A stretch of 64,000 nt of DNA, taken from contig NZ_CP116967.1 of the NCBI RefSeq assembly GCF_032050975.1, forward strand, positions 4,399,001 through 4,463,000, read 5' to 3'. Position 1 is the first letter of the stretch. Each line of letters starts with the position of its first letter. Under the pieces are notes generated by a model. The model was not told the DNA's origin. It ran no database searches and saw nothing but the letters and a program-made list of their open reading frames with translations. This document shows positions 16,702-48,553 of the stretch, one piece after another. Source of the DNA: Candidatus Nitrospira allomarina (GTDB lineage: Bacteria; Nitrospirota; Nitrospiria; Nitrospirales; UBA8639). Both the position numbers and the translations under genes were made by a program.

Positions 16702-17601
16702 TTAGTGAGGAAGAGAGCGTACGAAGGCATCAAGCGATTGCATGTCTGGAAAGACCGTGATTTTTTCATCCCAAAAAAGAGAGGAATGGGCTTGCGCAAA
16801 TTGTCCGCCTACGCCGATCGGTGCAAGGGGTTTAATGAGTGAGGCTAATTCCTTGACGATCATTTTGGCCTCTGTAAGGGTACGATCGACCGTCAGGGAA
16901 AGGAGAACATAAGATGGGCGGAATTGTTCACAAAATTTTGCCAGTTCGGGAATAGGAAGATTGGCCCCTAAATAGTGTACGCGACATCCACGCACCGCAC
17001 ACAGGTAGGCTGCCGTCATGGCCGATATTTCGTGCCACTCCTGGGCCGGACAGGCCACAACCACATGCGGATCTCCCTCTGATAATTGAAATTGATTTAG
17101 GGCCGAAAAGATTTTCTGCTTGACTTGGTTTGAGACGAAGTGCTCTTGGGCGACCCCCATCACGCCGTCATGCCATAGCTGGCCAACCCTCTCTTGTAGA
17201 GGAAGCAAAAATCGGTGCAGCGCTTCCTCAAACGGGATGACAGCCAATGCGCCATTCAGTTTTCGCTGAAAACCGAGCCGATTGCCCTCCTGGATCGCCT
17301 GAATCAATTCGGAGATTAGGTTCTCGGAATGCGGCGTCTCAGCCGCGGATCTCACCCAGTCCTGATGAGCCAGCCTGAGAAGTGTTTCCCGCCCGGTCTC
17401 TGCTAGCTGCCCGATGCTCATCCCCTGGTCGACCTGCGATTTCAGGTATCTGAATAGTCGAACATCTTCATCCCTGTAGAGCCTATAGCGATTGGCTCCC
17501 CTAGTTGGATCTACTAATCCATAACGTTTTTCCCAAGCGCGTATGACATGTGTCGAAATTCCCGTAAGCTTTGAGAATCGTTGAATTCTATACATTGCCA
17601 T
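16702..17601 (-). CDS. MerR-family regulator with cobalamin-binding domain (LitR/CarH-like)
   Basis: This 299-residue protein has an N-terminal MerR helix-turn-helix (MYRIQRFSKLTGISTHVIRAWEKRYGL, residues 3-29), a helical middle with the cap-type pattern LPLQERVGQLWHDG and QEHFVSNQVKQKI, and a C-terminal B12-binding Rossmann domain (VVVACPAQEWHEISAM, His as the candidate lower cobalt ligand, then VHYLGANLP). Proteins of this architecture (LitR, CarH, CarA) repress light-induced genes in the dark using adenosylcobalamin as the chromophore. There is no clear ribosome site. A TTGACA at 17632-17637 with a TAATTT 18 nt on would start the RNA close to the ATG, so the mRNA may be leaderless. A second family member is at 25510-26478. 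Confidence 0.9.
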   Translation of the reverse strand: MAMYRIQRFSKLTGISTHVIRAWEKRYGLVDPTRGANRYRLYRDEDVRLFRYLKSQVDQGMSIGQLAETGRETLLRLAHQDWVRSAAETPHSENLISELIQAIQEGNRLGFQRKLNGALAVIPFEEALHRFLLPLQERVGQLWHDGVMGVAQEHFVSNQVKQKIFSALNQFQLSEGDPHVVVACPAQEWHEISAMTAAYLCAVRGCRVHYLGANLPIPELAKFCEQFRPSYVLLSLTVDRTLTEAKMIVKELASLIKPLAPIGVGGQFAQAHSSLFWDEKITVFPDMQSLDAFVRSLPH

Positions 17602-24482: not shown

Positions 24483-25517
24483 ATGACCACACGATTAATC
24501 GACATCGATCTCAAGCCTCACAACAAAACGACTCAACTTGACAAAAATTTGGCTGAGTCCCTTTCAGAGCATAAGCCGCGATTGGGCATCAGCCAATGTC
24601 TGCTCGGCGACACGGTTCGATACGATGGCGGACATAAACGGGATGCCTTCCTCACAGATGTGCTGGCCCCGTTTGTCGAATGGCTTCCGGTCTGTCCCGA
24701 AGTAGAAGCGGGACTAGGCACCCCGCGAGAGGCCATGCATTTGGCAGGGAATCCAGATGCCCCACAACTCCTGACCATCCGCTCCCACATTGATCACACC
24801 ATGACACTCCAGACCTTTAGTCAGCGCCGGGTTCAGGAGTTACAGGAAAGTGATTTGGATGGATATATTTTTAAAAAAAGTTCCCCCAGTTGCGGAGTCT
24901 ATCGGGTCAAGGTTTATACCGAGAAAGGGCAACCTTCAAAACAGGGTACCGGTATTTTTTCAGCCGCCTTTCAACAAGCGTTTCCCCTACTCCCTGTGGA
25001 GGAAGAAGGACGGTTGAGCGACGCACCAATTCGGGAAAACTTTATCGAGCGCATTTTCTGTTATCGGAGGTGGAAAACCCTCTATCAACAGGATCGGATC
25101 AGCCGTGGGGCCATTGTCCAATTCCATACCCGTCACAAATATTTATTGCTCACCCACAGCCGTTCGCATTATCACGACCTTGGACAACTCATCGCAAAGG
25201 CAGGCCAGTACACACCCGATGCCCTGGCCAGTCACTATGGCCCGCGTTTTATGGACGCGCTGAAAAGCAAGGCCACAGTACGAAAGCATGTGAATGTCCT
25301 CCAGCATCTGGCGGGCCACTTCAAAAAACAGCTGAAGCCGATTGAACGGGCCGAGTTGCAGGAAACCATTCAGGATTACCACCGGCAACTCACCCCCCTG
25401 GCCGTGCCGCTCACGCTCATTAAACATTATGTGCGCATCCTGGAGGTACCCTATTTAGTTGACCAGGTCTACCTCAACCCGCACCCCAAGGAACTCATGT
25501 TACGTAACCATGTCTAA
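24483..25517 (+). CDS. DUF523-DUF1722 fusion protein (YbgA-like)
   Basis: This 344-residue cytoplasmic protein has an N-terminal DUF523 domain with Cys motifs (GISQCLLGDTVRYDGGHKRD, VCPEVEAGLG, SPSCGVYRV) and a C-terminal DUF1722 domain (RGAIVQFHTRHKYLLLTHSR, LKRK-like PIERAELQ). The combination is often found next to photolyase genes (ybgA-phr in E. coli), and Cys clusters suggest iron-sulfur or thiol chemistry, but no activity is established. Its end overlaps the next gene by 8 nt (ATGTCTAA), so translation with the second B12-MerR regulator is coupled. The start at 24483 has AGGAGAGG at a rather long 13 nt. Confidence 0.9.
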   Translation: MTTRLIDIDLKPHNKTTQLDKNLAESLSEHKPRLGISQCLLGDTVRYDGGHKRDAFLTDVLAPFVEWLPVCPEVEAGLGTPREAMHLAGNPDAPQLLTIRSHIDHTMTLQTFSQRRVQELQESDLDGYIFKKSSPSCGVYRVKVYTEKGQPSKQGTGIFSAAFQQAFPLLPVEEEGRLSDAPIRENFIERIFCYRRWKTLYQQDRISRGAIVQFHTRHKYLLLTHSRSHYHDLGQLIAKAGQYTPDALASHYGPRFMDALKSKATVRKHVNVLQHLAGHFKKQLKPIERAELQETIQDYHRQLTPLAVPLTLIKHYVRILEVPYLVDQVYLNPHPKELMLRNHV

Positions 25518-26478
25518 CAATCTAAAAGATTCCCAGACCTATCGGATTAAATCTGTGGCCAGTACCACTGGACTCAGCACCCACGTGATCCGGAAATGGG
25601 AAGAACGCTACCATTTGGTCCATCCGCAGCGAGGCCCTAACGGCTATCGACTCTTTACCGAAGATGACATTCAATTCCTCCTGTACTTGAAATCACAATT
25701 GGATCATGGTGAATCCATTGGGCAATTGGCGCAAGCCGGTGAGCGCGAACTCCGACAATCGATGAATCAAGTCCCTCTCAATCTCTCGGGAATAGCCTCT
25801 CTCTATTGGAATGACACCCAGGACATGATTCGGTTGGCCCGGCACCAGGACGTACGGGCCATTACCACCATGATTGAGAAATGGATCAATCAATTGGGGC
25901 TTGAAAAAGCCCTGGATAGCATTATTTTTCCGGTCTTGCGTCTGATTGGCGACCTGTGGCATCAAGGAGGGATGAGTCTGAGGGGGGAACAAAGCGTGAG
26001 CCGGTTGGTGCGTCAACACCTCATTAACGTTCTACGAGAAGAACCTCCTCTTGGAGGACCGCACGCCTTAATCGCCTGTGTGCCTGGAGACTTTCATGAA
26101 ATTGCTCCACTGACTGCGGCGATTCTTCTGCGAGGGCTTGGATGGCACAGCATCTATCTCGGGCCCAATGTTGCATTTGAGATGCTGGAATTGGCCCTGC
26201 GCCGGAAACAAACACAGCTCATTCTCCTTTCCTGCAACCTAGAACTAGAAGAAAAAATACTACGGTCCTGGCTACAAAAGATCACTCGACTTCTTCAGCC
26301 TTCGTGTGCGGTAATGGTGGGGGGACCGGGGTTTAAACCGTATGTGCCTCTTCTTCGCACTCACAACATTACCTATTTCACCCAAGTCCAGGATGTCAAA
26401 ACATTGCAACTACGAACTGGCATGGGTGAAAACGCCACGACTTTCCACCCATCATCATCCATTTCCGGGCAATCATAG
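25510..26478 (+). CDS. second MerR-family regulator with cobalamin-binding domain
   Basis: This 322-residue paralog of the regulator at 16702 has the HTH YRIKSVASTTGLSTHVIRKWEERY (residues 10-33), the middle cap-type stretch IFPVLRLIGDLWHQGG and a C-terminal B12 domain (ALIACVPGDFHEIAPL with candidate cobalt-ligand His, YLGPNVAFEML). It is expected to bind adenosylcobalamin and sense light like LitR/CarH. I use ATG at 25510, inside the end of the DUF523-DUF1722 gene. Longer starts would overlap more and are not family-like. CbiX follows 12 nt downstream, linking the regulator to cobalamin supply. Confidence 0.9.
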   Translation: MSNNLKDSQTYRIKSVASTTGLSTHVIRKWEERYHLVHPQRGPNGYRLFTEDDIQFLLYLKSQLDHGESIGQLAQAGERELRQSMNQVPLNLSGIASLYWNDTQDMIRLARHQDVRAITTMIEKWINQLGLEKALDSIIFPVLRLIGDLWHQGGMSLRGEQSVSRLVRQHLINVLREEPPLGGPHALIACVPGDFHEIAPLTAAILLRGLGWHSIYLGPNVAFEMLELALRRKQTQLILLSCNLELEEKILRSWLQKITRLLQPSCAVMVGGPGFKPYVPLLRTHNITYFTQVQDVKTLQLRTGMGENATTFHPSSSISGQS

Positions 26479-28727: not shown

Positions 28728-28954
28728 TATGCGGCATCCTCCCCGTTTTCTAGAATTTCCCTCGGCCGACAAAATTCCAATTTCGATTTCTGGTCATTGA
28801 GACCGTCTGCCTTCAGTCAAGTAAACACAGAGAGTGAACGGTCCGCTTGTCTAAGGTTTTCCAATTCCCTTCGGCCTCCTTTAGCCTCCTTCAAATCCCA
28901 GGGTGTACAATGTGAATGGAGCACCATTCAGAGACCATAAGGAAAGGCGTTGAC

Positions 28955-29593
28955 ATGGACCAAATTACCCCCAATTTTTCAGATACGGACATTCATATTC
29001 TGGAATGTGGTCTAGGATGGATTAAGGACGCTGAAGATGCTTTTGCCGATAAACTTTTCCATCGGCTGTTGCGTGATCATCCTGAGGTCACAACCTCTCT
29101 CCATTCAATGGGACTACAACCGTTCAGCAGGCGAATCGTCCAGATCCTCGATACGATTATCAGGGAAATCCGCTCATGCGGAAAAATTCAATCACCCATC
29201 AGAGAACAATGGACAGACCTGCTTCCCACAACGGTGAGCCACCTGGAACCGAGTCAACTGCTCAGGATGTCGGAAACGTATTTGGACATTTTTTCTGAGT
29301 TGGCGGAGGATGCCTGGAGCCCTGCCATGGAATCTGCCTGGAGAAAAATCATTCACGGGGTGAGCATCAGCTTGTGGGGACAACAACCTGAATCCTTGTC
29401 CCTTGCAAAGATTTCATCGCCCTTTCCATTCATCACAAGGAGGAATAATCGCATGAACCAACCGTTTACATTTCTTTTGGGGACTTTCATGATTTTGGCA
29501 GGCGGAATCGCCTCTATCGGTCTGTGGAGTCGTTATCGGCTTGCAGAAGTCAAGCTATCAAAGAAGCCAAGGCTTAAAAAAGCATGGTGCTGA
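28955..29593 (+). CDS. globin-like domain protein with C-terminal membrane helix
   Basis: This 212-residue protein looks like a distant globin: residues about 10-140 show the globin helix pattern, including DKLFHRLLRDHPEVTTSL (B-C region), His96 in TVSHLEPSQLLRMSETYLDIFSEL as the candidate heme-ligand position, and EDAWSPAMESAWRKIIHGVS (helices G-H). A single membrane helix follows (residues about 171-191) with a basic tail. I use ATG 28955, with AAGGAAAGG 7 nt upstream, over the earlier ATG at 28916. A globin with a C-terminal anchor could sense or detoxify O2 or NO at the membrane, but the assignment rests on pattern, not a clear match. An internal ribosome site is noted separately. Confidence 0.6.
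   Translation: MDQITPNFSDTDIHILECGLGWIKDAEDAFADKLFHRLLRDHPEVTTSLHSMGLQPFSRRIVQILDTIIREIRSCGKIQSPIREQWTDLLPTTVSHLEPSQLLRMSETYLDIFSELAEDAWSPAMESAWRKIIHGVSISLWGQQPESLSLAKISSPFPFITRRNNRMNQPFTFLLGTFMILAGGIASIGLWSRYRLAEVKLSKKPRLKKAWC
29437..29455 (+). promoter_or_regulatory. internal Shine-Dalgarno and in-frame ATG within the globin-like gene
   Basis: AAGGAGGA (29437-29444) lies 8 nt before an in-frame ATG at 29453. Initiation here would give a 46-residue membrane peptide identical to the C-terminus of the globin-like protein (29453-29593). Confidence 0.5.
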
Positions 29594-31270: not shown

Positions 31271-31789
31271 GTGATCGAAGAACCTGCGCTCGGTTTTGAA
31301 TATGATGGCGAAAACCCTTCGTCCAAAGAACCTGGAGAGTCTCTTTCTCTTCGAATTAGGCGGCTAATGGACTCTCAGCCCTTCGCGGTGTTGTGCACAC
31401 AGGGGGAACAACATCCATATGGTTCTTTAGTGGCTTTTTCGATGACAGAAGATTTGGCTACCGCTGTCTTTGCCACCCCCGTCACCACAAGAAAATTCAA
31501 GCTACTAAGCCAAAGCGATCGGGTCGCACTCCTGATCGACAATCGGTGCCAGCATCCCGACAATATGATGAATGTGGAAGCCGTCACTGCAACAGGACAG
31601 GCCAAACGTGTTGGGGAAGGCATGGACTTCGAATTCTGGTCGCGTTTATTGACAGCGCGCCATGGGTATCTTTCCGGTTTCGTTCGCGCACCAACCGTGG
31701 CACTGTTTTGCATTGAAATCGTGAGGTATTTTCATGTCGAACGATTTCAGGAGGTCCGACAGTGGATTCCCCAAAAAATACCTGGATAG
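31271..31789 (+). CDS. pyridoxamine-5'-phosphate-oxidase-like FMN-binding protein
   Basis: This 172-residue protein has the split-barrel flavin-binding fold: LRIRRLMDSQPFAVLCTQGEQHPYGSLV, then ATPVTTRKFKLLSQSDRVALLIDN and VTATGQAKRV. These match the PNPOx-like and HugZ-like families that bind FMN, F420 or heme. The start is GTG at 31271 with GAGGGAA upstream. The 3' end overlaps the next gene by 28 nt, so the two are translationally coupled. The partner is a PEP/pyruvate-binding-type phosphotransferase, so a joint role in modifying a small molecule is possible. The actual reaction is not known. Confidence 0.85.
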   Translation: MIEEPALGFEYDGENPSSKEPGESLSLRIRRLMDSQPFAVLCTQGEQHPYGSLVAFSMTEDLATAVFATPVTTRKFKLLSQSDRVALLIDNRCQHPDNMMNVEAVTATGQAKRVGEGMDFEFWSRLLTARHGYLSGFVRAPTVALFCIEIVRYFHVERFQEVRQWIPQKIPG

Positions 31790-34050
31790 TTTCCCTTGGC
31801 GAGACGGCTGGTCATGATGTGAAGGTGGTTGGAGGAAAGGCGGCTGCTCTCACAAGGATGATCTCTGCAGGTGTCCAGGTTCCATCGGGTTTTTGCCTTA
31901 CCGTTTTTGCCTATCAACACGTGCTTTCTCGTTCAGATCTGCCGAATGTCATTCACATGGAGTTGGGACGGAAACCTTTGAACAAGATGCGCTGGGAAGA
32001 AATCTGGGACGCGGCCTTGCGAATCCGATCAGCCTTTTTGAGAACTCCCCCTCCGCTTGAGCTTGAGCAAGCCGTCTATGAGGCTCTATCCCGGCTAAAT
32101 TCGCGACATCCCCTTGCCGTGAGATCTTCGGCTCCTGGGGAGGACTCGGCTCAACGTTCCTTTGCCGGGCTTCATGAATCGATCGTGAATGTTCAAGGCC
32201 AGGAATCGGTGATTCGAGCCGTGCAGGCGGTTTGGGCCTCCCTCTGGTCGGATGCGGCCTTGCTGTATCGCAAGGAATTACGCCTCGACCCACGCCACAG
32301 TCTCATGGCCGTCATCATTCAGGAAATGGTTCCTGCTGAACACTCCGGCGTCGCCTTTGGGCGTGATCCTCGAAACCAGGCTCTGGATAGGGAAATTGTG
32401 GAAGCGGTCCCGGGCCCATGCTCGAATTTGGTTGACGGACTCTTGGAACCTGACCGGTGGATACTCAACCGGAGCTCCGGGGAAGTCGTCGAGTGGAAGG
32501 CGGGGGTCCGGAATAGCGAACAACATGACTCTGCCCTCTTGAGTGATCATGATCTACAAGTACTCCATACACGTCTTGGACAAGTGGAGGAATTGTTCGG
32601 ATGGCCTCCCGATATGGAATGGGCGGAACAAGGTGGCATACTGTCAGTCCTCCAGGCCCGTCCCATTACATCCGGTCTGTCTGTCGTCCAATCAGATGAC
32701 CGTGGCTGGTATCTGACCCTTCGCCCGAAACTCCCACAACTTCGTCAACTGGCAGAAAAAGTTTCCAAAACATTAATTCCTGAACTTGAACGCCTTGGAG
32801 CTCAATTGGCTACCCAGAACATTGAAATACTGGATGACAGCCATCTTGCGGAATGTATGGAGGAAAGACTTTCTACCCTCACATCCTGGAGGGAAATTTA
32901 TAAGAAAGACTTTATTCCTCTTGCCCATGGGGTACGCTATTTGGGGGCCTATTACAATGATGCCCTTCAGCCCCGGGACCCCTATGAATTCATGCTGCTC
33001 CTCAGGGGACAGGATTTTCTTGCTTCGCGACGCAATGCCGCTCTTGAACACATTGCTCAACAGGTCCAAAATATTCCCCTCCTCAAAAGAAAACTCAAGG
33101 AAAGTGCGATATCCGTATCGGACAAGTCATCAGAAAACTGGGAAGCTCTGAAGCAACAAATTATGAATATCCAAGGTGGGCCTGATTTTCTGAGGGATTT
33201 CGATCGCTTTCTCACGACCTTTATGGACACCTCCTATAATGGTGAACGTCTGGTGGATCGGCCGGACTCGTTGTTCAATTTGATATGCCAGGTCGAGACT
33301 TTCGCCACAACAAAACCAGCGCAAAGGGAGGAAAATGGAAAGATCAACTCCATGGCCATTCAACAGCGTTTGATAGAGGCTGTAGGAATGACGCGCGAGG
33401 ATGAAGCCCGGGAGGTCATCGCCATCGGCCAACTCAGCTGGCGCCTCCGTGATGATGACAATATTCTTTTGGGACGCATTGAAAGCCAGTTCCTTCGAGC
33501 GTTGCATCTTGGAGCTCACCGTTTACGCCCAGCCGGGCGACTGACCGGAAAAAATCCAAGTGAAACAACTGCACCCCTTATTTGCCAACTACTTCGAGAT
33601 CACCAACACGATCCCATTCACGTTGACGAAGATGAATCAGAAGCCTTGCATCAAACCTCGGACAACAACGAAAAGCCCCGTCAGCTCATAGGACAACCGG
33701 CTTCCCCCGGCCTGGCAGAGGGACCGGCATGTGTCGTGAACGGCATTGAAGAGTTCCGAAATTTTCAACAAGGCGACGTTCTGGTATGTGAATCCATTCA
33801 ACCGACCATGACCCATCTGGTTCTTCTCGCCTCCGCCGTTGTTGAGCAACGTGGGGGTATGTTGATTCACGGGGCCATTATTGCGCGTGAGCTTGGCATT
33901 CCCTGTGTGAATGGCATTACCCATGCGACTCAACTCATTGGCAATGGAGATCAACTGATGGTGGATGGTCACCTTGGAATTGTGACGATTGGAGATCCGG
34001 ATTTCGAACTGGAAGACCAGGCCTTTTCCGAACAAACGTACCCAATCTGA
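31762..34050 (+). CDS. PEP-synthase/rifampin-phosphotransferase-like dikinase
   Basis: This 762-residue enzyme has an N-terminal ATP-grasp-like PPDK_N domain (VVGGKAAALTRMISAGVQVPSGFCLT, then AVRSSAPGEDSAQRSFAGLHES and VQEMVPAEHSGVAFGRDP up to about residue 300), a unique middle part (about 310-650), and a C-terminal swivelling phosphohistidine domain with GGMLIHGAIIARELGIP (His703). It lacks the C-terminal TIM barrel of PEP synthase. This ATP-grasp, middle, phospho-His order is that of rifampin phosphotransferase, where the middle domain binds the acceptor. The acceptor here is unknown. GTG 31762 is supported by a perfect AGGAGGT 7 nt upstream, inside the previous gene. Confidence 0.85.
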   Translation: MDSPKNTWIVSLGETAGHDVKVVGGKAAALTRMISAGVQVPSGFCLTVFAYQHVLSRSDLPNVIHMELGRKPLNKMRWEEIWDAALRIRSAFLRTPPPLELEQAVYEALSRLNSRHPLAVRSSAPGEDSAQRSFAGLHESIVNVQGQESVIRAVQAVWASLWSDAALLYRKELRLDPRHSLMAVIIQEMVPAEHSGVAFGRDPRNQALDREIVEAVPGPCSNLVDGLLEPDRWILNRSSGEVVEWKAGVRNSEQHDSALLSDHDLQVLHTRLGQVEELFGWPPDMEWAEQGGILSVLQARPITSGLSVVQSDDRGWYLTLRPKLPQLRQLAEKVSKTLIPELERLGAQLATQNIEILDDSHLAECMEERLSTLTSWREIYKKDFIPLAHGVRYLGAYYNDALQPRDPYEFMLLLRGQDFLASRRNAALEHIAQQVQNIPLLKRKLKESAISVSDKSSENWEALKQQIMNIQGGPDFLRDFDRFLTTFMDTSYNGERLVDRPDSLFNLICQVETFATTKPAQREENGKINSMAIQQRLIEAVGMTREDEAREVIAIGQLSWRLRDDDNILLGRIESQFLRALHLGAHRLRPAGRLTGKNPSETTAPLICQLLRDHQHDPIHVDEDESEALHQTSDNNEKPRQLIGQPASPGLAEGPACVVNGIEEFRNFQQGDVLVCESIQPTMTHLVLLASAVVEQRGGMLIHGAIIARELGIPCVNGITHATQLIGNGDQLMVDGHLGIVTIGDPDFELEDQAFSEQTYPI

Positions 34051-34226
34051 CTGGCATCCCAATTAAATAATTTTAAAAAAATAAACGGCCGAGGCTTGGG
34101 GATAGTGAAGCCAATTTCATACTAATTTTCCTGAAGATCCTCAAGTGAAATTTTTGAACGGTCAATTGATCTGTATTGTGAGCTCTATGAGGTTTTTTTA
34201 GCCAAAATATAAGGGGGATTCAAACC

Positions 34227-34846
34227 ATGATCCAAATCACCTATTTGAGTTCGGCCACACGAGCCATGTCTCAGGGTGACTTAGAAGACATTCTGAAAAC
34301 GGCCCGAGAAAATAACGCCCGCTTAGGCATCACCGGAATGTTGCTTTATGGCAATAAAACCTTTATTCAAATCTTGGAAGGTGAAGAGGGCGTGGTTGAT
34401 GAATTAGTCAAAACCATCAAACGCGATCCGCGGCATACCAATTTTCAGATTGTCAAGAAAAAGCCCATCGACCAGCATGAATATGCCGACTGGAGCATGG
34501 GCTTTAAACGGGTCTCCGGCGAGGACTTTGAGGCGGTCAAAGGACTCGAGGATTTTGAGGAAAAGAATTTCAATACGACATTTTTGGGCAGTCAGGTGAG
34601 CCTGGTCGACTCCTTGATGGATCATTTCCGGAAGGAGCGGATCAGAAAAATCGGCCAGGAAGAACTCTCCCTGGATGAAGAAGATCGGTTTATGAAAATT
34701 CTTCATCACACTATTCGCGGAGCCGTAAAGGTTCTGGCCGTACTCATGGTCTTTACCATTCTCTGGGGCGTGGTTGATGTCGTATATATCCTCTATCAAC
34801 AGCTAGTGGCCCCCACCTTTACCACGTTCACCATTCGGGATATTGT
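34227..34846 (+). repeat. tandem-duplicated block, copy 1 (pairs with 35377-35996)
   Basis: These 620 bp match 35377-35996 with only three substitutions by direct comparison: C/T in an Asn codon, G/A changing Glu to Lys, and one silent G/A. Identity begins at the start codon and ends abruptly at TATTGT. The flanking upstream regions are unrelated and the 3' gene halves differ strongly. Confidence 0.95.
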
Positions 34847-35111
34847 CACCACCTTCGGTGCCTTTATGGCAGTGCTCATCGCAATAGAGATTTTTATTAA
34901 CATTACCCTTTATATTCGAAAAGATGTTATTCATGTCAAATTAGTGGTAGCCACGGCTCTGATGGCGATTGCCCGAAAGGTCATTATATTTGACTTTTCC
35001 AAAATCACCCCGCTTTATATCTTCGGCACGGCGACCGTGGTGTTGGCTTTAGGCATCACCTACTGGCTGATAGACAGACCGTTGCCCACCGGTGAGTCAG
35101 AAAATCAATAG
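34227..35111 (+). CDS. BLUF photoreceptor fused to PsiE-like membrane domain, copy 1
   Basis: This 294-residue protein starts with a BLUF (blue light using FAD) domain, residues about 1-96, with the flavin-switch residues Tyr6 (TYLSSATR), Asn30 (ENNARLGITG), Gln48 (FIQILEG) and Trp89/Met91 (DWSMGF). A charged linker (about 97-155) leads to four transmembrane helices (about 165-285) whose ITLYIRKDVIHVKLVVATALMAIARKVIIFD segment matches the PsiE (phosphate-starvation-inducible) family. BLUF joined to a PsiE-like membrane part is unusual, because most BLUF proteins are short or drive cyclases or EAL domains. The output is unknown; a light-gated membrane effect is inference. GGGGG with a poor SD precedes the ATG. 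A near-identical neighbour follows at 35377. Confidence 0.9.
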   Translation: MIQITYLSSATRAMSQGDLEDILKTARENNARLGITGMLLYGNKTFIQILEGEEGVVDELVKTIKRDPRHTNFQIVKKKPIDQHEYADWSMGFKRVSGEDFEAVKGLEDFEEKNFNTTFLGSQVSLVDSLMDHFRKERIRKIGQEELSLDEEDRFMKILHHTIRGAVKVLAVLMVFTILWGVVDVVYILYQQLVAPTFTTFTIRDIVTTFGAFMAVLIAIEIFINITLYIRKDVIHVKLVVATALMAIARKVIIFDFSKITPLYIFGTATVVLALGITYWLIDRPLPTGESENQ

Positions 35112-35376
35112 GTACCCACGACCTTACGGAGGTGTTCTGAAATTCAAGCTTCGCTCATCTTGCGTTGTCGTGGTCTATCCCTGAAATCGTGGACACATCT
35201 GAACCACACGAGAGTATACGAGCGGGGAGAGAATGAAAACTCGCGAAGTCTGAGACATACTCTCAAGGAGGCCTTTCAACGAAAACGGGTAAGGACTAGC
35301 CATTACGCTATACGCCAATGACAGCTTGCGACGTCCGCCTTAACCTTCAGAGAGTAGTCGGAAGGAAATTGAGCCC

Positions 35377-35996
35377 ATGATCCAAATCACCTATTTGAGT
35401 TCGGCCACACGAGCCATGTCTCAGGGTGACTTAGAAGACATTCTGAAAACGGCCCGAGAAAATAATGCCCGCTTAGGCATCACCGGAATGTTGCTTTATG
35501 GCAATAAAACCTTTATTCAAATCTTGGAAGGTGAAGAGGGCGTGGTTGATGAATTAGTCAAAACCATCAAACGCGATCCGCGGCATACCAATTTTCAGAT
35601 TGTCAAGAAAAAGCCCATCGACCAGCATGAATATGCCGACTGGAGCATGGGCTTTAAACGGGTCTCCGGCGAGGACTTTGAGGCGGTCAAAGGACTCAAG
35701 GATTTTGAGGAAAAGAATTTCAATACGACATTTTTGGGCAGTCAGGTGAGCCTGGTCGACTCCTTGATGGATCATTTCCGGAAGGAGCGGATCAGAAAAA
35801 TCGGCCAGGAAGAACTCTCCCTGGATGAAGAAGATCGGTTTATGAAAATTCTTCATCACACTATTCGCGGAGCCGTAAAGGTTCTGGCCGTACTCATGGT
35901 CTTTACCATTCTCTGGGGCGTGGTTGATGTCGTATATATCCTCTATCAACAACTAGTGGCCCCCACCTTTACCACGTTCACCATTCGGGATATTGT
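35377..35996 (+). repeat. tandem-duplicated block, copy 2 (pairs with 34227-34846)
   Basis: Second copy of the 620-bp block; see the first copy. The offset between copies is 1150 bp. Confidence 0.95.
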
Positions 35997-36264
35997 TCCA
36001 ATATTTAGTTCATCGTTAGCCCCAATCATTGCCATAGCAATTTTCATGAACATTACGCTCTATATTCGCCAAGACGTCATTCACATCAAATTAGTGTTGG
36101 CGACCGCTTTGATGGCCATCACCAGAAAGGTAATCATATTCGATTTTAAAGAAATAACCCCGCCCTATATTTTTGGGACTGCTGCGGTGGTATTGGCTTT
36201 AGGCACCACCTACTGGCTCATCGAAAGACGGCTCACCTGGAGTGAGTCCAATAATCGGAAATAA
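35377..36264 (+). CDS. BLUF photoreceptor fused to PsiE-like membrane domain, copy 2
   Basis: This 295-residue paralog is identical to the copy at 34227 over the BLUF domain and first membrane helix except for one Glu-to-Lys change near residue 108 (GLKDFEEK). From about residue 208 it diverges (PIFSSSLAPIIAIAIFMNITLYIRQDVIHIKLV and onward) while keeping the PsiE-like pattern. The BLUF switch residues are all kept, so both should be photoactive. The upstream 265 bp differ from those of copy 1, so each gene may have its own promoter. AAGGA lies about 10 nt before the ATG. Confidence 0.9.
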   Translation: MIQITYLSSATRAMSQGDLEDILKTARENNARLGITGMLLYGNKTFIQILEGEEGVVDELVKTIKRDPRHTNFQIVKKKPIDQHEYADWSMGFKRVSGEDFEAVKGLKDFEEKNFNTTFLGSQVSLVDSLMDHFRKERIRKIGQEELSLDEEDRFMKILHHTIRGAVKVLAVLMVFTILWGVVDVVYILYQQLVAPTFTTFTIRDIVPIFSSSLAPIIAIAIFMNITLYIRQDVIHIKLVLATALMAITRKVIIFDFKEITPPYIFGTAAVVLALGTTYWLIERRLTWSESNNRK

Positions 36265-38619: not shown

Positions 38620-40053
38620 ATGATGGAACGCCAGCAAAAGAATACGTCAAAGGATGCTGCCGACCGATCCCGCTCACAGACTATTCGGGTCAAGATAATG
38701 TATGTATTGATAAATATGAGACCCACCACATTCCACTTGGTCTTCGTGGTTGTTTTAAGCCTATCGCTGGTGGCTGCGGAGTTTTTTCCCAGCCCGGTAT
38801 GGTCACAGGAAGAGGGACAATCGACAAAGGATCTCACATGGCTCGATGAAATTGAGAAGATCTTTATCCCCTCAACACAGTGCAAGCAGTGCCATGACCG
38901 GCATTTTGAAGAATGGAAAGGCATGAGGGAACGTAGTGAGGATCTTCATTCGTTTGGACGGATGGATGGGGCCCTGCTTCATGGCACAGCCCTGAAGTCT
39001 CCTGTCTTCAGGACTGTGCTTGGTTTGTGGCTTCAGACTCAGCCCACTCTTGAACAACGAACAAAATGCCTGGCTTGCCATGTCCCAGCCGTCACCGTCT
39101 TCCCACAATATGCAGATCGCATTATTGACCAAGTCCAGAGAGGACCGAACCACATCAAAGTGGAAGGCATTGGATGTGCGTCCTGCCATCTCATCCAGGC
39201 CTCAGGGGGAAAGGATGATGATTATCCGGTATTTCAACTCGTTCCTGGATCCACATTTTTCGGCCCGTACGGTGATCCAGAGGATAACCTGGCCCATCAA
39301 TCACAAAAGGCGGAGATCTATGAAGGAGCGAATTTCTGTACCTCCTGTCACTTCAGCAAGGTCAAGGATGTTACCCAACCACATCTGAACGGAGCCATTC
39401 TGAAGGACCTGGTTTGCCAAAATTGCCACATGGAACAATCTTATGGCAGTTCCACCGACAAGGGGGGGACGCATTCCAGATCCCTGGCTCGCCACTGGTT
39501 TCAGGGAGTTGTGGCGCCGGGAATCATGTTGAGTAATCGCAACGTGCAGGCAGAATGGACATCACGCCTCAATATCGAGATCACACAGACCACGTTCTCG
39601 GTTCAGGGTATTCTGCATGTACCCAATGGCAGCTTGATACACATGTTCCCCGGGGGGGACCCTGTTCTCAAGCAATTCATTGTCAAAGTTATGGTAAAGG
39701 ATCAAACAGGAGCTATCATTGGTGAAGAGGACAAAACATTCGGACGCTCATTTGAAGAATTATTAAGAGGACCAATACCACAACCCTTGATCAACAGCGG
39801 TATCACCCGCCATATTCCCTTCAATATTGCAGTCCAGGAAGACACCACTCCGGCGTTCATCGAGGCCACAATTAGCTATGCTCTTATGCCGAAACCCGGA
39901 AAAGAATTACAGAGCCGCTATTTGTCAACCTTGTCTGGAGAAAAGCAGCGAAATGAGGCTTTACAAATTATCGACCAATATACGACTCCCCGTCTCCTGA
40001 CATTCCGCACGAAACCCTTGGAAACCATTCCTCATCTTTCGAAAAAATCATGA
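38620..40053 (+). CDS. secreted pentaheme cytochrome c (cytochrome c554-like)
   Basis: This protein of about 477 residues has five heme c sites at CKQCH (88-92), CLACH (150-154), CASCH (186-190), CTSCH (240-244) and CQNCH (266-270), all in the N-terminal 270 residues. The C-terminal 200 residues form a beta-rich domain without hemes. A hydrophobic signal (about residues 39-53) exports it to the periplasm. The start is uncertain: the first ATG is at 38620 with no good ribosome site, and in-frame ATGs at 38698 and 38716 lie closer to the signal. It overlaps the next, paralogous gene by 4 nt (ATGA). The layout fits the cytochrome c554/multiheme family that passes electrons from periplasmic oxidations. 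Confidence 0.88.
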   Translation: MMERQQKNTSKDAADRSRSQTIRVKIMYVLINMRPTTFHLVFVVVLSLSLVAAEFFPSPVWSQEEGQSTKDLTWLDEIEKIFIPSTQCKQCHDRHFEEWKGMRERSEDLHSFGRMDGALLHGTALKSPVFRTVLGLWLQTQPTLEQRTKCLACHVPAVTVFPQYADRIIDQVQRGPNHIKVEGIGCASCHLIQASGGKDDDYPVFQLVPGSTFFGPYGDPEDNLAHQSQKAEIYEGANFCTSCHFSKVKDVTQPHLNGAILKDLVCQNCHMEQSYGSSTDKGGTHSRSLARHWFQGVVAPGIMLSNRNVQAEWTSRLNIEITQTTFSVQGILHVPNGSLIHMFPGGDPVLKQFIVKVMVKDQTGAIIGEEDKTFGRSFEELLRGPIPQPLINSGITRHIPFNIAVQEDTTPAFIEATISYALMPKPGKELQSRYLSTLSGEKQRNEALQIIDQYTTPRLLTFRTKPLETIPHLSKKS

Positions 40054-41324
40054 ACCGACTTTTCCTCATTTGTAAAAAGAACCTGGCGCTCTTTTTGGGT
40101 GTCATGGTTATCTGTGGAATTTTGGTGATCAATGTCATGGCTTCATTTAACCAGATAATCTTGCGAGAGGCTCTGGCAGGCAATAATTCCAGCGTTCCGG
40201 ATAAGCCACTGGAAAAAGCCTTTCCGCCGTCCAATAAATGCCAGCGATGCCATTTACGTGCCTTTGAAGAATGGGAGTCCTCCGCACAATCCCGATCTAT
40301 TGAAACTGCGCCCTTTCGAGTCACCCTGGACCGTTATCTTCAAAGAGCGACAACGGACCAGCAAAAGATGTGTTTCCAGTGCCATGCTCCTCATATTCTG
40401 AAATACGGGCACCTGTTTCAGGATTTCGTTGAGGAGGTCAAATCGAAAGATCCGCAGATTGACGGAGTCGGCTGTTCGCAATGCCACCTGATTAGCGAGG
40501 TCGATTCCAGCACCCGTCCCCCTCACCCCATTTTCTCATTGGGTAAGACGCTTTTTGGGGGTTATGACAATCCCCAACACAACCTCGCTCATGATTCACA
40601 GAAGCTTGAACTGTATACGCAGTCTCAATATTGCGTGCCTTGTCACCAATCTCTTCCTTCTCACAACGGTGCCATCACACATTCGGACTGGTTGGGATCC
40701 TGGCAAGAGACCAAGGCTGAACAGAATGGGAAAACTTGCCAGGCTTGTCATATGCCGGAGGCATTTGGTGAATCGGCCACAGGGGAACCATCCAGGCGAA
40801 TTGCAAATCATAGCTTTCCAGGAAGGTTTGGAAAAGTGAGGGCCAATGCAGTTGAATTGCAGTTCACGACCCATGTTAAAGGGCAGGTATCCCAAGTGGA
40901 AGTGACCATCCACAGCCTGGTCCCTCACAATCTGCCCTTGCCCCACCCTGGTTGGTCTCGCATCGTGCTCGACCTGACCATTCTTGGGAAAAATCTCAAC
41001 AAAGTGTATGGTGAGCAACGTTTTTATGAGCGCATATATATCGATCCAGAGGGTGCCCAAACCGTGTTTGATTTTGAGGCCGTCAAAATCTTGAAGGATA
41101 CGTCATTGAAGCCTGAAGAAAAACGGGTGGAGAAATTCAGCTTTCCGACTCCGGCGAATGCCCCCTCGATGGACGTCATCGTCACCATGAGTTATGCGCC
41201 AGTGCATGGTTCGGATGATTTCTTGAAAGCCATCGAAGACGAAGCGACCCTTGGACGAAAAGATCGCTCCTTTCAGAAGGTGCTTATTAAAGAAGAAAGG
41301 GCAAACGTCCCGATCTCATCATAA
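40050..41324 (+). CDS. secreted pentaheme cytochrome c, paralog
   Basis: This 424-residue protein is a paralog of the previous one, with five heme sites at CQRCH (64-68), CFQCH (108-112), CSQCH (142-146), CVPCH (195-199) and CQACH (230-234). The N-terminus (LALFLGVMVICGILVINVMA) is a signal anchor. Shared stretches are FEEWE before heme 2 and LFGGYDNPQHNLAHDSQKLELY, close to FFGPYGDPEDNLAHQSQKAEIY in the neighbour. It starts in the stop of the first gene, so the two are expressed together and may form a complex. A membrane peptide gene follows after 35 bp. Confidence 0.88.
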   Translation: MNRLFLICKKNLALFLGVMVICGILVINVMASFNQIILREALAGNNSSVPDKPLEKAFPPSNKCQRCHLRAFEEWESSAQSRSIETAPFRVTLDRYLQRATTDQQKMCFQCHAPHILKYGHLFQDFVEEVKSKDPQIDGVGCSQCHLISEVDSSTRPPHPIFSLGKTLFGGYDNPQHNLAHDSQKLELYTQSQYCVPCHQSLPSHNGAITHSDWLGSWQETKAEQNGKTCQACHMPEAFGESATGEPSRRIANHSFPGRFGKVRANAVELQFTTHVKGQVSQVEVTIHSLVPHNLPLPHPGWSRIVLDLTILGKNLNKVYGEQRFYERIYIDPEGAQTVFDFEAVKILKDTSLKPEEKRVEKFSFPTPANAPSMDVIVTMSYAPVHGSDDFLKAIEDEATLGRKDRSFQKVLIKEERANVPISS

Positions 41325-42384: not shown

Positions 42385-43818
42385 ATGACAACACACACCT
42401 TCCCAGTCGTCGTCTGGTTTCGGCAGGATTTACGCATCAAGGACAATCCGGCACTGTTGGCCGCCCACCAAACAGGACAACCTATTGTCCCGTTATTTAT
42501 TTTGGATGAGGAAAATTGCGGTGAATGGAAGTTAGGCGGGGCCAGCCGTTGGTGGTTGCATGAAAGTCTCAAGGCACTGAACGAAGCCTTGGAGGACAAG
42601 CTTTGCTTCAAGGCAGGATCGGCACAAAACATACTGGTGGACCTCATCAAAGGGGTAGGCGCAGAAGCGATTTATTGGAACCGGTGTTACGAGCCCTGGC
42701 GAATCACCAGCGATGCCCACATTGAAGAGGCATTGCAGACCAAAGGAATCAAGGTGCACACCTTTAACGGGGCTCTTCTTTTTGAACCCCAGACGGCGCT
42801 CAAAAGCGACGGCACCCCGTATAAGGTGTTCACGCCCTTTTATCAAAATGGATGTCTCGGAAAGGGCAATGAACCACGACGACCCTCCAAAGTCCCAAAA
42901 GATTTAAGGCTATCCACACACAGAGGTATGGCACTAATAGATTTAGAACTGCTGCCCAATATTCCCTGGTACAAAAAACTTGTGAAACATTGGAAGCCCG
43001 GGGAAGCCGGGGCTCAGGCCCGACTGAAAGCATTTCTCAAAAGCGGCCTCAAACAGTACAAAGAAGGCCGGAACTATCCTTCTGGAAATAATGTCTCCCG
43101 ATTATCGCCGCATCTGCATTTTGGAGAAATCTCACCGAATGAGGTGTGGTATGCCGCCAAACAACATATGGGTGCGGAAGGATGGCGGAAGGACGGGGAA
43201 ACGTTTCTGAGCGAGCTTGGGTGGCGGGAGTTTTCCCACAGTCTGCTCTTCCATTTCCCCGAACTCCCCCGGAAAAATTTGCAAAAGAAATTTAATAAAT
43301 TTCCCTGGCGTAAAGATCAGAAGGCTCTGAAAAAATGGCAACAAGGCCAAACCGGCTACCCCATCGTGGATGCCGGCATGCGTGAGCTGTGGGAAACCGG
43401 CTACATGCATAACCGCGTGCGCATGATTGTCGGATCGTTTCTGGTCAAAAACCTTCTGTTGCACTGGCACCTTGGGGAGGACTGGTTCTGGGATACATTG
43501 GTTGATGCCGATCTTGCCAACAACAGTGCTAGCTGGCAATGGATTGCAGGCTGTGGAGCCGATGCCGCACCGTATTTTAGAATTTTCAATCCCGTCACGC
43601 AGGGGAAAAAGTTTGATCAAAATGGTGAGTATGTTCGCCGGTTCATCCCAGAGTTAAAAAAGATACCAGACAAATACCTCCATAATCCATGGGAAGCGTC
43701 TGAAAAAGTGTTGACGGAAGCGGGGGTGCACCTCGGAGAAGATTATCCCCTGCCGATCGTCACACTCAGGGATTCCCGTGAGCGGGCGTTGGAAGCATTT
43801 TCTGGATTGGCTCAATGA
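42385..43818 (+). CDS. phr: deoxyribodipyrimidine photolyase (class I CPD)
   Basis: This 477-residue enzyme repairs cyclobutane pyrimidine dimers with blue light. The N-terminal Rossmann (antenna) domain has VVVWFRQDLRIKDNPAL and PLFILDEENC; the C-terminal helical FAD domain has NNVSRLSPHLHFGEISP, YPIVDAGMRELWETGYMHNRVRMI, HWHLGEDWFWDTLVDADLANN and WQWIAGCGADAAPYFRIFNP. The Trp-rich electron-transfer chain residues are kept in these stretches. The antenna pigment (folate or deazaflavin) cannot be told. A plain cryptochrome is less likely because the active-site Asn/Trp pattern is that of a repair enzyme. No close upstream operon partner. Confidence 0.94.
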   Translation: MTTHTFPVVVWFRQDLRIKDNPALLAAHQTGQPIVPLFILDEENCGEWKLGGASRWWLHESLKALNEALEDKLCFKAGSAQNILVDLIKGVGAEAIYWNRCYEPWRITSDAHIEEALQTKGIKVHTFNGALLFEPQTALKSDGTPYKVFTPFYQNGCLGKGNEPRRPSKVPKDLRLSTHRGMALIDLELLPNIPWYKKLVKHWKPGEAGAQARLKAFLKSGLKQYKEGRNYPSGNNVSRLSPHLHFGEISPNEVWYAAKQHMGAEGWRKDGETFLSELGWREFSHSLLFHFPELPRKNLQKKFNKFPWRKDQKALKKWQQGQTGYPIVDAGMRELWETGYMHNRVRMIVGSFLVKNLLLHWHLGEDWFWDTLVDADLANNSASWQWIAGCGADAAPYFRIFNPVTQGKKFDQNGEYVRRFIPELKKIPDKYLHNPWEASEKVLTEAGVHLGEDYPLPIVTLRDSRERALEAFSGLAQ

Positions 43819-45682: not shown

Positions 45683-47017
45683 ATGAGTGACTTAATCGCT
45701 GCGAGATCCCTAATGGCCATGTCGTTGGGGTTTCATATTATTTTTGCGGTCGTGGGTATGGCCATGCCGCTCCTGATGGTGGTGGCCGAATGGCGCTGGC
45801 TGAAAACAGGGAAAGCCGTGTACCTGACCATTGCCAAACGCTGGGCCAAAGGCACGGCCATTTTTTTTGCCATTGGTGCCGTCACGGGAACCGTGTTGTC
45901 GTTCCAATTGGGCCTACTCTGGCCTCGGTTTATGGAATGGGCCGGTCCCATCATCGGACCGGCCTTCGCCATAGAAGGATTTGCGTTTTTTACGGAAGCC
46001 ATTTTTCTCGGGATCTATCTCTATGGATGGCAAAAGGTGAGCCCGGGCGCACACCTCGCGGCGGGAGGTGTGGTGGCGTTGAGTGGAATTACGTCCGGAG
46101 TCGTCGTCGTCATGGCGAATGGGTGGATGAATACCCCCAGAGGATTTATGATGCATGGCGAAGTTCTGGCCAATATCGATCCCGTGGCGGCCCTCTTTAA
46201 TCCTTCAGGCTTATTGCAGGCCCCGCATATGATCCTTGCCGCGTTTGCGGCTACCGGTTTTGCGGTGGCCGGCATTCACGCGTTCCTTCTTCTCCGCCAA
46301 CCCGGCCATGCGTTTCATCAATCGGCTTTGCAAATCGCATTGGTCATCGGTGGAATCAGCGCCATTATTCAACCGCTCAGCGGAGATTTCCTCGCCAAAC
46401 AAGTGGCAGAATTTCAGCCCTTAAAATTGGCGGTATTTGAAGCCCAGGTTGAGACGCAACAGGGCGCGCCGTTTCGAATCGGCGGAGTTTGGGATTCAAA
46501 AAGAGAAATGTTTGACTATGTGGTGGAAATCCCCTATGCCTTGAGCCTGCTGGTCACATCGGATCCCAATGGCCAGGTGGTAGGTCTCAAAGATTTCCCC
46601 AAGGAAACCTGGCCGCCCATTGGAATAACCAGGACGGCGTTTCAACTCATGGTGTTTATCGGATTTTTGATGATGGGCCTGGCTTTCTGGGGCCTCTGGC
46701 TTCTGTACAAGAAGAATCTTTTTCAATGCCGGCGGTTCCTCCAGGCGATGGTGTTGGCGACGCCGTTAGGTTTTCTAGCGATCGAAGCCGGTTGGGTAGC
46801 GACGGAAGTGGGCCGACAACCCTGGGTCATTGTGGGATATCTGAGAACCGCAGACGCCGTCACACCCATGCCGGGATTGATCATTCCTCTGATGATTTTT
46901 GGCGCTTTGTATGTTTTCCTGGCCTGTATCGTGATCTGGTTGATGTGGCGCCATGTCTCAGCCACCCCCGATCAGTTTGAGATGACACCCCCTCGGAAGG
47001 AGACGCAACCGGTCTGA
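45683..47017 (+). CDS. cydA: bd-type oxidase subunit I (CydA-like)
   Basis: This 444-residue membrane protein has the CydA features: ARSLMAMSLGFHIIFAVVGMAMP with the heme b595 His, IEGFAFFTEAIFLGIYLYGW with the proton-pathway Glu residues, QPLKLAVFEAQ (quinol-loop Lys and Glu), and the GRQPWVIVGYLRT signature. The Q-loop is short, as in cyanide-insensitive CIO-type oxidases. In Nitrospira, bd-like proteins of this sort are proposed terminal oxidases that may take electrons from cytochrome c or copper carriers rather than quinol. The next gene starts in its stop (TGATG). The multicopper oxidase-cytochrome c gene lies 195 bp upstream. Confidence 0.88.
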   Translation: MSDLIAARSLMAMSLGFHIIFAVVGMAMPLLMVVAEWRWLKTGKAVYLTIAKRWAKGTAIFFAIGAVTGTVLSFQLGLLWPRFMEWAGPIIGPAFAIEGFAFFTEAIFLGIYLYGWQKVSPGAHLAAGGVVALSGITSGVVVVMANGWMNTPRGFMMHGEVLANIDPVAALFNPSGLLQAPHMILAAFAATGFAVAGIHAFLLLRQPGHAFHQSALQIALVIGGISAIIQPLSGDFLAKQVAEFQPLKLAVFEAQVETQQGAPFRIGGVWDSKREMFDYVVEIPYALSLLVTSDPNGQVVGLKDFPKETWPPIGITRTAFQLMVFIGFLMMGLAFWGLWLLYKKNLFQCRRFLQAMVLATPLGFLAIEAGWVATEVGRQPWVIVGYLRTADAVTPMPGLIIPLMIFGALYVFLACIVIWLMWRHVSATPDQFEMTPPRKETQPV

Positions 47018-48039
47018 TGGAATTAGAAATCGCTCTCGCCAATGTCTTATTGATCGCTTTGACGTTTTACGCCTTGCTGGGTGGGGCAGACTTTGGGGCC
47101 GGAGTATGGCATCTCCTGGCCAGAGGTCCCACAAGGCGGGCGCAACACCAGCTGATTGGAGAAGCTATCGGACCGATCTGGGAGGCCAATCATGTATGGT
47201 TGATTCTGATCGTGACCATCGTCTTCACGGCTTTTCCGCGGGCCTATGTGCACATTTCCACCACGCTTCATATTCCTCTGACCATCCTGGTCATCGGCAT
47301 CGTCCTTCGCGGGTCAGCGTTTGCCTTTCGTCACTATGACATTAAAGATGATGACATTCACCTCAGGTGGGATCAACTGTTTGCCATTTCCAGTCTCATC
47401 AGCCCTCTTCTCCTGGGCATTATCATTGGTGCCATTACCTCCGGCCACTTTCCCGTCAACCCTGCAACCTTTTTTGAAGGGTACATTGCTCCCTGGCTAC
47501 AACCTTTTCCGTTAGGCATGGGATTATTGACTCTCCTGCTGTTTTCTTATTTGGCAGCCACTTATCTCCTTCTGGAAACCCGCGATCCCGCACTGCAAAA
47601 GATTTTCCGGAAACGGGCGATTACCGCGGTCCTCCTGGCGGGCATACTGGAAGAAGCCGTGTTGTACCTGGGAAGGTCCGGGGCACCGCGCCTCTGGGGA
47701 GAGGTAACGACGAGCCTTTGGGGAGGATTCATTCAACTCGGCGTCGGCAGTTTGACCATTATAGCTATCCTCTTGCTCCTGACGCAGCGCTACTGGTGGG
47801 CCAGGACATGTGCCATCCTGCAAGTCACCCTGACGATTTGGACATGGGGCATCGCACAATTTCCTTATTTAATCCCCCCCCACCTGACGGTCTTCAATAC
47901 CGCAGCTCCGGGGGTCACCCTTCAATTCATCGCAGGTGCCCTATTGGTTGGCATACTATTCCTGTTCCCTTCTCTGTTTTATCTGTTTCGAATTTTTAAA
48001 GGGAGCATGTTGTTCCGTCATAAGGGGCACCATGAATAA
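47017..48039 (+). CDS. cydB: bd-type oxidase subunit II (CydB-like)
   Basis: This 340-residue partner has eight transmembrane helices with the family motifs LTFYALLGGADFGAGVW, GPIWEANHVWLILIVTIVFTAFP, RGSAFAFRHYD and TLEPF-less long loops typical of shorter bacterial forms. CydB scaffolds CydA. Gene order and coupled overlaps with cydA (1 nt) and the DUF393 gene (8 nt, ATGAATAA) indicate one operon. No separate CydX-like peptide was seen in the gene. Confidence 0.88.
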   Translation: MELEIALANVLLIALTFYALLGGADFGAGVWHLLARGPTRRAQHQLIGEAIGPIWEANHVWLILIVTIVFTAFPRAYVHISTTLHIPLTILVIGIVLRGSAFAFRHYDIKDDDIHLRWDQLFAISSLISPLLLGIIIGAITSGHFPVNPATFFEGYIAPWLQPFPLGMGLLTLLLFSYLAATYLLLETRDPALQKIFRKRAITAVLLAGILEEAVLYLGRSGAPRLWGEVTTSLWGGFIQLGVGSLTIIAILLLLTQRYWWARTCAILQVTLTIWTWGIAQFPYLIPPHLTVFNTAAPGVTLQFIAGALLVGILFLFPSLFYLFRIFKGSMLFRHKGHHE

Positions 48040-48466
48040 AAAATCCTGTACGGGATACTGCCAAACATCCCCCGATGTGCCCCGGGATGTCACGCCCCAT
48101 CCCGGGGGAACCAAACCCTATCCCTTGACCGTGTATTTTGATGGCGACTGTCCAATTTGTCGTCGTGAGATCGATCTCATGAAAATATTTAACCGGAAGA
48201 AACATCTCAAATTCATTGATTTTGCCGCTTCATCCTATCTTCCGGCAGAACACGGATTAAGTCCATGTGATTTGGGCCAAGTCATTCATGCCCGGTGGGC
48301 GGATGGAACGCTCATGACCGGGGTCGAGGTGTTCAGGGAAATGTGGGAAGCCATCGGATTGCGCGCTCTCGCAAGATTGGCCAGACGGCCCACGATCAAC
48401 AAACTTCTGGTTCGCGCGTATGACTGGTTTGCCAGAAACCGGTTACGCCTGACCGGCCGCGCCTGA
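48032..48466 (+). CDS. DUF393 (DCC family) thiol-disulfide-like protein
   Basis: This 144-residue protein has the thioredoxin-like DCC motif VYFDGDCPICRREIDLM (DGDCxxC, Cys-Pro-Ile-Cys) near residues 32-48, and then a short helix-strand fold with LVRAYDWFARNR at the end. DUF393 proteins are thiol-disulfide oxidoreductase-like, with no settled substrate. ATG 48032 has AAGGGG at 5 nt and overlaps the CydB stop by 8 nt, so it is co-expressed with the oxidase. It may help assembly or thiol chemistry near it (inference). The photolyase-family gene starts about 90 bp downstream. Confidence 0.87.
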   Translation: MNKKSCTGYCQTSPDVPRDVTPHPGGTKPYPLTVYFDGDCPICRREIDLMKIFNRKKHLKFIDFAASSYLPAEHGLSPCDLGQVIHARWADGTLMTGVEVFREMWEAIGLRALARLARRPTINKLLVRAYDWFARNRLRLTGRA

Positions 48467-48553
48467 CCGGGTTCCTCGAGCGGATTGCAGCGGCATTCAT
48501 GTGTTTGGCTCATGCAGAGATCGCGTGAGCCCTGCTTCATTTCTGACTCCGGG

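Follow-up and report, generated by a model that had tools for sequence, protein, structure and literature searches.

What do two adjacent genes of a marine nitrite oxidiser, each joining a flavin-based BLUF domain to a predicted membrane domain, contribute to the cell? The genes lie in a 64,000-nucleotide stretch (the window) of the genome of 'Candidatus Nitrospira allomarina VA' (PMC10579370), and were singled out from the sequence as tandem BLUF photoreceptors fused to PsiE-like membrane domains.

Domain organization of the two fusion genes

The coordinates and reading frames of the tandem pair are correct as originally given, and the two genes and their parts are positioned as follows.

34227-35111, + strand: copy A, BLUF-PsiE fusion, 294 aa (ORF and Pfam)
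34227-34502, + strand: BLUF domain of copy A (Pfam, AlphaFold)
about 34503-34682, + strand: helical linker of copy A (Pfam, AlphaFold)
34725-35078, + strand: PsiE domain of copy A (Pfam, AlphaFold)
35377-36264, + strand: copy B, BLUF-PsiE fusion, 295 aa (ORF and Pfam)
35377-35652, + strand: BLUF domain of copy B (Pfam)
35875-36231, + strand: PsiE domain of copy B (Pfam)

Both copies match the complete BLUF profile (PF04940, positions 1-92 of 92, E = 5e-32, 110 bits; curated Pfam cut-off, 25 bits). The PsiE profile (PF06146; curated cut-off, 23.9 bits) is covered over nearly its entire length in both, at residues 167-284 of copy A (E = 9.6e-37, 126 bits) and 167-285 of copy B (E = 2.5e-31, 109 bits). 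The profile search that the original prediction had named as a possible refutation of its C-terminal assignment thus returned PsiE matches far above the cut-off. The description "PsiE-like" holds at the level of the superfamily and not for PsiE itself: the copies score 15.8 and 10.6 bits against the NCBIfam PsiE equivalog (NF002763, cut-off 138), and we rejected them as orthologues of E. coli PsiE. Both BLUF domains of the source genome reside in copies A and B, and two further PsiE genes are present, unfused.

All five residues of the proposed flavin pocket (Tyr6, Asn30, Gln48, Trp89 and Met91) are present in both genes. Across 25 aligned fusion proteins Tyr6, Asn30, Gln48 and Met91 are invariant and Trp89 is nearly so; an ungapped alignment equates the five with Tyr8, Asn32, Gln50, Trp91 and Met93 of the solved PixD Tll0078. 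AlphaFold predicts the BLUF fold with confidence (pLDDT ~90), and a Foldseek comparison on the first model superposes it on TePixD at ~1 Å rmsd over 95 columns. Four long hydrophobic helices follow in the AlphaFold prediction (residues 153-194, 203-232, 237-254 and 262-283) with which hydropathy peaks agree, as expected for the four membrane helices proposed after the BLUF domain. The charged linker of about 60 residues proposed between the two domains survives in part. About half of it (residues 117-145) is predicted to form helices that resemble the cap found C-terminally in short BLUF proteins, and the stretch that is poorly modelled lies at ~144-152. A fold search of the PDB was uninformative for the PsiE part, as only BLUF was represented among the matches listed, and a PDB profile search with PsiE gave nothing significant, so that by sequence the PsiE part has no counterpart among solved structures.

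Distribution of the fusion

A BLUF ORF of fusion length is found in 7 of the 21 genomes of the genus, and the fusion was confirmed. Outside the Nitrospirota, the search of other genomes that had been suggested as a check recovered the same architecture in Nitrospinota (Nitrospinaceae), 'Ca. Nitrotoga', Nitrosomonadales, Methylohalobius and many Methylococcales. Full-length fusions occur in at least 21 of the 151 genomes of the Methylotuvimicrobium order (17 of 20 checked candidates, and G268, G269, G272 and G279); the collection search was seeded from the window protein, making the fusions listed a lower bound to which more distant ones may be added. In 246 sampled Nitrospirota genomes, BLUF ORFs of fusion length were confined to the genus of the window; one BLUF ORF of 1110 aa occurs elsewhere among them, and we rejected BLUF-PsiE as a general trait of that phylum. 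An origin in phages was likewise set aside, since there was no match in phages.

A 2014 census of BLUF proteins recorded 64% short BLUF proteins and 34% with EAL domains (PMC4844311), in agreement with the original remark that PsiE is not a standard BLUF output. Our search of openly available papers found no publication linking BLUF with PsiE; the two terms occur together only in an E. coli stress-network paper and a riboswitch paper, each term with one to three mentions, and neither title points to such a protein. Domain databases may list the architecture. BLUF-PsiE is a real and recurrent fusion that gives a known sensor a new membrane output, and is apparently undescribed.

Two loci carry other arrangements of these domains. 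In the gammaproteobacterium L061, a BLUF-only gene (5279-5692, − strand) is divergent from an adjacent PsiE-only gene (5959-6459, + strand), possibly an unfused version of the same pair. The methanotroph locus L038 contains two BLUF-PsiE genes (1019-1885 and 4733-5599) that lie 3 kb apart and form a strongly diverged, unhomogenised pair.

Gene conversion between copies A and B

Over their first ~620 nt, which encode the sensor, the linker and the first membrane helix (TM1), copies A and B share 99% identity; beyond, the figure falls to 72%.

34225-34846, + strand: homogenised tract in copy A, covering sensor, linker and TM1, with 3 mismatches relative to copy B
35375-35996, + strand: homogenised tract in copy B, converted from A

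The near-identity begins 2 nt ahead of the start codon and stops at codon 207; of the 258 positions beyond, 73 differ between the copies. At background divergence, a tract like this would arise with a probability of ~10^-80 (log10 P = −80). Synonymous divergence between A and B is 0.015 in the N part and 1.9 in the C part (dS above 1 being saturated). A second species, represented by an independent single-contig genome (G001), has a tandem pair with the same N/C split (dS = 0.063 and 3.5). Trees of the two parts conflict: the N part groups A and B by species, and the C part groups them by copy.

Comparison with the single-copy relative L010 gives copy B a dS of 0.27-0.42 in the C part and 1.1-1.4 in the N part. 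The C part value is similar to that of flanking genes compared between the window and L025-L028 (dS = 0.24-0.64), which identifies B as the resident gene, its sensor half having been overwritten by A. On these sequence comparisons, the pattern is that of gene conversion, in which paralogues are more alike within a species than to their orthologues and the ends of the tract are sharp. As in other cases of gene conversion between paralogues, the homogenised tract is recent; here, it covers the sensor, linker and TM1, and the remainder of the membrane domain has stayed divergent. A simple recent duplication was rejected on the contrast between a dS of 0.015 in the first part and saturation in the rest, together with unrelated upstream regions of A and B. 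An assembly artefact was rejected on the identical break in G001.

Two genes lie directly upstream of copy A.

31271-31789, + strand: PNPOx-family protein, probably arrived with copy A
31762-34050, + strand: PEP-synthase/PPDK-like protein, probably arrived with copy A

Copy A probably arrived together with this pair, since it stands behind both genes, only 3 of 21 genomes of the genus have the PPDK-like gene, and both genes also occur in NPIRA01 (L024). In NPIRA01 copy A is present, and the place of B downstream of it is taken by a broken BLUF remnant only. The PNPOx-like gene overlaps the PPDK-like gene, whose Pfam matches are limited to the ATP-binding domain and the mobile phosphohistidine domain, with none to the PEP-binding domain.

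Divergence of the second membrane helix in copy B

Immediately beyond the tract, the second membrane helix (TM2) of copy B departs from the rest of the family.

35998-36048, + strand: rewritten TM2 of copy B, residues 208-224, with E221A, F213S and V216P

The motif TFGAFLAVLIAIEIFINI is nearly universal in TM2 of fused and unfused relatives alike, whereas copy B has IFSSSLAPIIAIAIFMNI and is without G211, F213, V216 and E221, the last of these (Glu221) being otherwise near-invariant. Copy B of G001 differs from L010 by 8 changes within 17 residues and by none in the next 70 (p = 4e-7, for a 17-residue segment picked post hoc). Between the two species, the C part of copy B has a dN/dS of ~0.11, which shows continued constraint on copy B. 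In a search for the donor of the rewritten TM2, no other DNA match was found in the genome, and one other PsiE gene of this genome, L005, was rejected as donor as it is not similar.

Light-response genes in the neighbourhood

The window contains several genes of the kind found in light-response islands.

16705-17601, − strand: MerR-B12 regulator with an intact CarH-type Wx9EH motif (WHDGVMGVAQEH)
24483-25517, + strand: DUF523 (2-thiouracil desulfurase) and DUF1722 protein, a recurrent neighbour
25459-26478, + strand: MerR-B12-binding (LitR/CarH-like) regulator with an altered Wx9EH motif (EQ)
42385-43818, + strand: photolyase/cryptochrome (Pfam)
45683-50260, + strand: cydA (Pfam), a cydB-like gene (by similarity and position) and a photolyase-related protein (DPRP)

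Wx9EH is taken here to be the CarH-type motif. The second photolyase of the window is at 48485, within the 45683-50260 segment, and the two belong to different families; a CbiX-like protein and an amine-oxidase-like FAD protein are also encoded. A MerR-B12 regulator and a photolyase thus share a gene neighbourhood, as in LitR/CarH islands. In the islands of P. putida and P. mendocina a MerR-type LitR, photolyases and an FAD oxidoreductase likewise lie near a flavin photoreceptor gene, but the photoreceptor is a short soluble LOV protein, unlike BLUF-PsiE (PMC9758184).

Photolyase is also a neighbour of BLUF-PsiE in six other loci (L025, L026, L028, L030, L037 and L038). A photolyase, DUF523 or MerR-B12 gene is found near 12 of 24 fused loci and near none of 55 PsiE-only loci, all from one search; the loci are related and the effective number is smaller. 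Outside the Nitrospirales, light genes are near 8 of 19 fused and 0 of 55 PsiE-only loci (p = 5e-6). As the Methylococcales loci share ancestry, the linkage has perhaps about four independent origins (Nitrospirales, Nitrospinota, Methylohalobius and Methylococcaceae). MerR genes stand beside the fusion in the Nitrospinota loci L029 and L030; around the fused methanotroph loci, no gene of the MerR-B12 type was found. In two methanotroph loci the fusion is followed by cytochrome bd genes, which in the window are situated 9 kb downstream of it. The light-controlled membrane process originally proposed for these genes fits this neighbourhood; the membrane output through PsiE is one that we infer.

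We rejected a shared promoter or operator, as neither GGTCAATT, upstream of both copy A and the photolyase, nor TGTACA is conserved in relatives, and found no sigma-70 promoters above chance. Two adjacent multiheme cytochrome c genes (38620-41324) share 61-66% nucleotide identity with their L024 homologues, a strong divergence. The region 28916-29593 encodes a protein of 225 aa that has no match in Pfam and ends in a hydrophobic segment at the C terminus; globin-like by eye only, it is conserved upstream of BLUF-PsiE in Nitrospirales (L025, L027 and L028).

Association of PsiE-only relatives with cation transporters

A clue to the output comes from PsiE genes without a BLUF domain. A Kef-type antiporter, NhaA or a P-type cation ATPase is encoded near 11 of the 55 PsiE-only loci, in five of them as a P-type cation ATPase directly downstream of PsiE; none of these transporters was found at the fused loci, and the association is one of PsiE-only loci. 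The stand-alone PsiE proteins accompanied by these transporters (L048-L050, L055, L057-L059, L068, L087, L092 and L094) are 60-70% identical to the window domain.

The PsiE domain of the window is 34% identical to PsiE-GI of the heat-resistance island, which also encodes KefB (PMC7010813). With the transporters at the PsiE-only loci, this suggests, by guilt by association, that ion or proton homeostasis is the theme of the PsiE family and that light is the input of the fused branch. BLUF-PsiE shares its Pfam family (PF06146) and a stress setting with these proteins (PMC7010813), and differs in carrying a sensor domain, which is absent there, and in falling below the PsiE equivalog cut-off (15.8 vs 138 bits).

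A proposed function and its alternatives

We tentatively favor, with a little less than an even chance of being right, a blue-light receptor that is tethered to the membrane, belongs to a photo-oxidative stress island and acts through PsiE on the ion/proton balance of the inner membrane. The flavin photochemistry, signal path and ion-balance output that we infer would be as follows. The cytoplasmic BLUF domain would bind flavin, and blue light would switch its hydrogen-bond network. The signal would pass through the C-terminal BLUF helices (117-145) to TM1 of the PsiE domain, whose four helices would lie in the inner membrane. The island to which this receptor would belong comprises the LitR/CarH-like regulators, two photolyases, DUF523 and cytochrome bd. 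When light endangers the respiratory chain, which is rich in cytochromes, PsiE would most likely alter the ion/proton balance or else a partner transporter. For the two marine Nitrospira, one input may serve two outputs, with the sensor half kept identical by conversion of B from A and the membrane halves differing, chiefly in TM2. Several observations count against this explanation: half of the fused loci are without any tested light gene, shared ancestry reduces the independent origins of the linkage to perhaps four, the cation transporters were found at PsiE-only loci and at none of the fused ones, the full-length AlphaFold model has a pTM of only 0.47, and we found no PsiE protein with an established activity or a solved structure.

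Alternatively, BLUF-PsiE could be a tethered anti-repressor that, depending on light, binds or releases a MerR regulator of the LitR/CarH type, with PsiE merely as its anchor. The BLUF protein AppA with PpsR is a precedent for an anti-repressor. The two MerR-B12 regulators of the island, one with an altered Wx9EH, and the MerR genes beside the Nitrospinota fusions are consistent with such a role, as is a further precedent in Pseudomonas mendocina, where a short LOV protein acts through a class II LitR encoded beside it, in a region with photolyase genes (PMC9758184). We consider it unlikely, given that the fused methanotroph loci are without a nearby MerR-B12 gene, and that conservation of the PsiE domain (~50 near-invariant positions) goes far beyond the need of an anchor in a family with many stand-alone members. 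The BLUF domain might instead report mainly flavin or redox state, or temperature, and modulate the PsiE membrane domain in stress. BLUF proteins such as YcgF/BluF and BlsA can respond to temperature besides light, and cytochrome bd and multiheme cytochrome genes lie in the island; with the photochemical residues conserved throughout and photolyases as recurrent neighbors, this seems to us improbable.

As for the pair itself, copy B could be a decaying duplicate that is in frame by chance, with conversion as a by-product of tandem repetition, which would be compatible with copy A as a working light receptor. The loss of several near-invariant TM2 residues, E221 included, and the broken remnant in NPIRA01 point in this direction. 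Copy B is, however, intact in two species with its C part at a dN/dS of ~0.11, and its changes in G001 are confined to one short segment, which makes decay a poor prospect in our estimation.

The receptor reading can be carried further, to a claim that we regard as rather doubtful at present: that BLUF-PsiE represents a hitherto unrecognised class of regulators, single-chain and gated by blue light, which control bacterial membrane ion/proton balance in photosensitive nitrite oxidisers and methanotrophs, and that two different membrane outputs in marine Nitrospira are driven by one identical, conversion-locked sensor.

Comparison with known photoreceptors

We know of no photoreceptor that acts directly on the membrane of a nitrifier. 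Nitrifiers, including Nitrospira, are strongly inhibited by light, and nitrite oxidation perhaps most (PMC9797979). BLUF-PsiE would let light act directly on the cell membrane in light-sensitive nitrifiers and methanotrophs, and its recurrence makes light sensing testable in nitrite oxidisers and methanotrophs. The fusion would also offer a handle on the general function of PsiE, including PsiE-GI of the heat-resistance island, and might serve optogenetics as a small flavin-based membrane tool.

Short BLUF photoreceptors (PixD/Tll0078, Slr1694 and BlrB) share with BLUF-PsiE a complete BLUF domain, the same pocket residues and the C-terminal helical cap, but are soluble and signal through separate partners, whereas BLUF-PsiE has a membrane domain in the same chain. 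BLUF-EAL and BLUF-cyclase proteins and AppA resemble it in placing an N-terminal BLUF domain on a larger protein with an output domain; their known outputs, either enzymes or a repressor-binding region, are all soluble, whereas that of BLUF-PsiE is the PsiE membrane domain.
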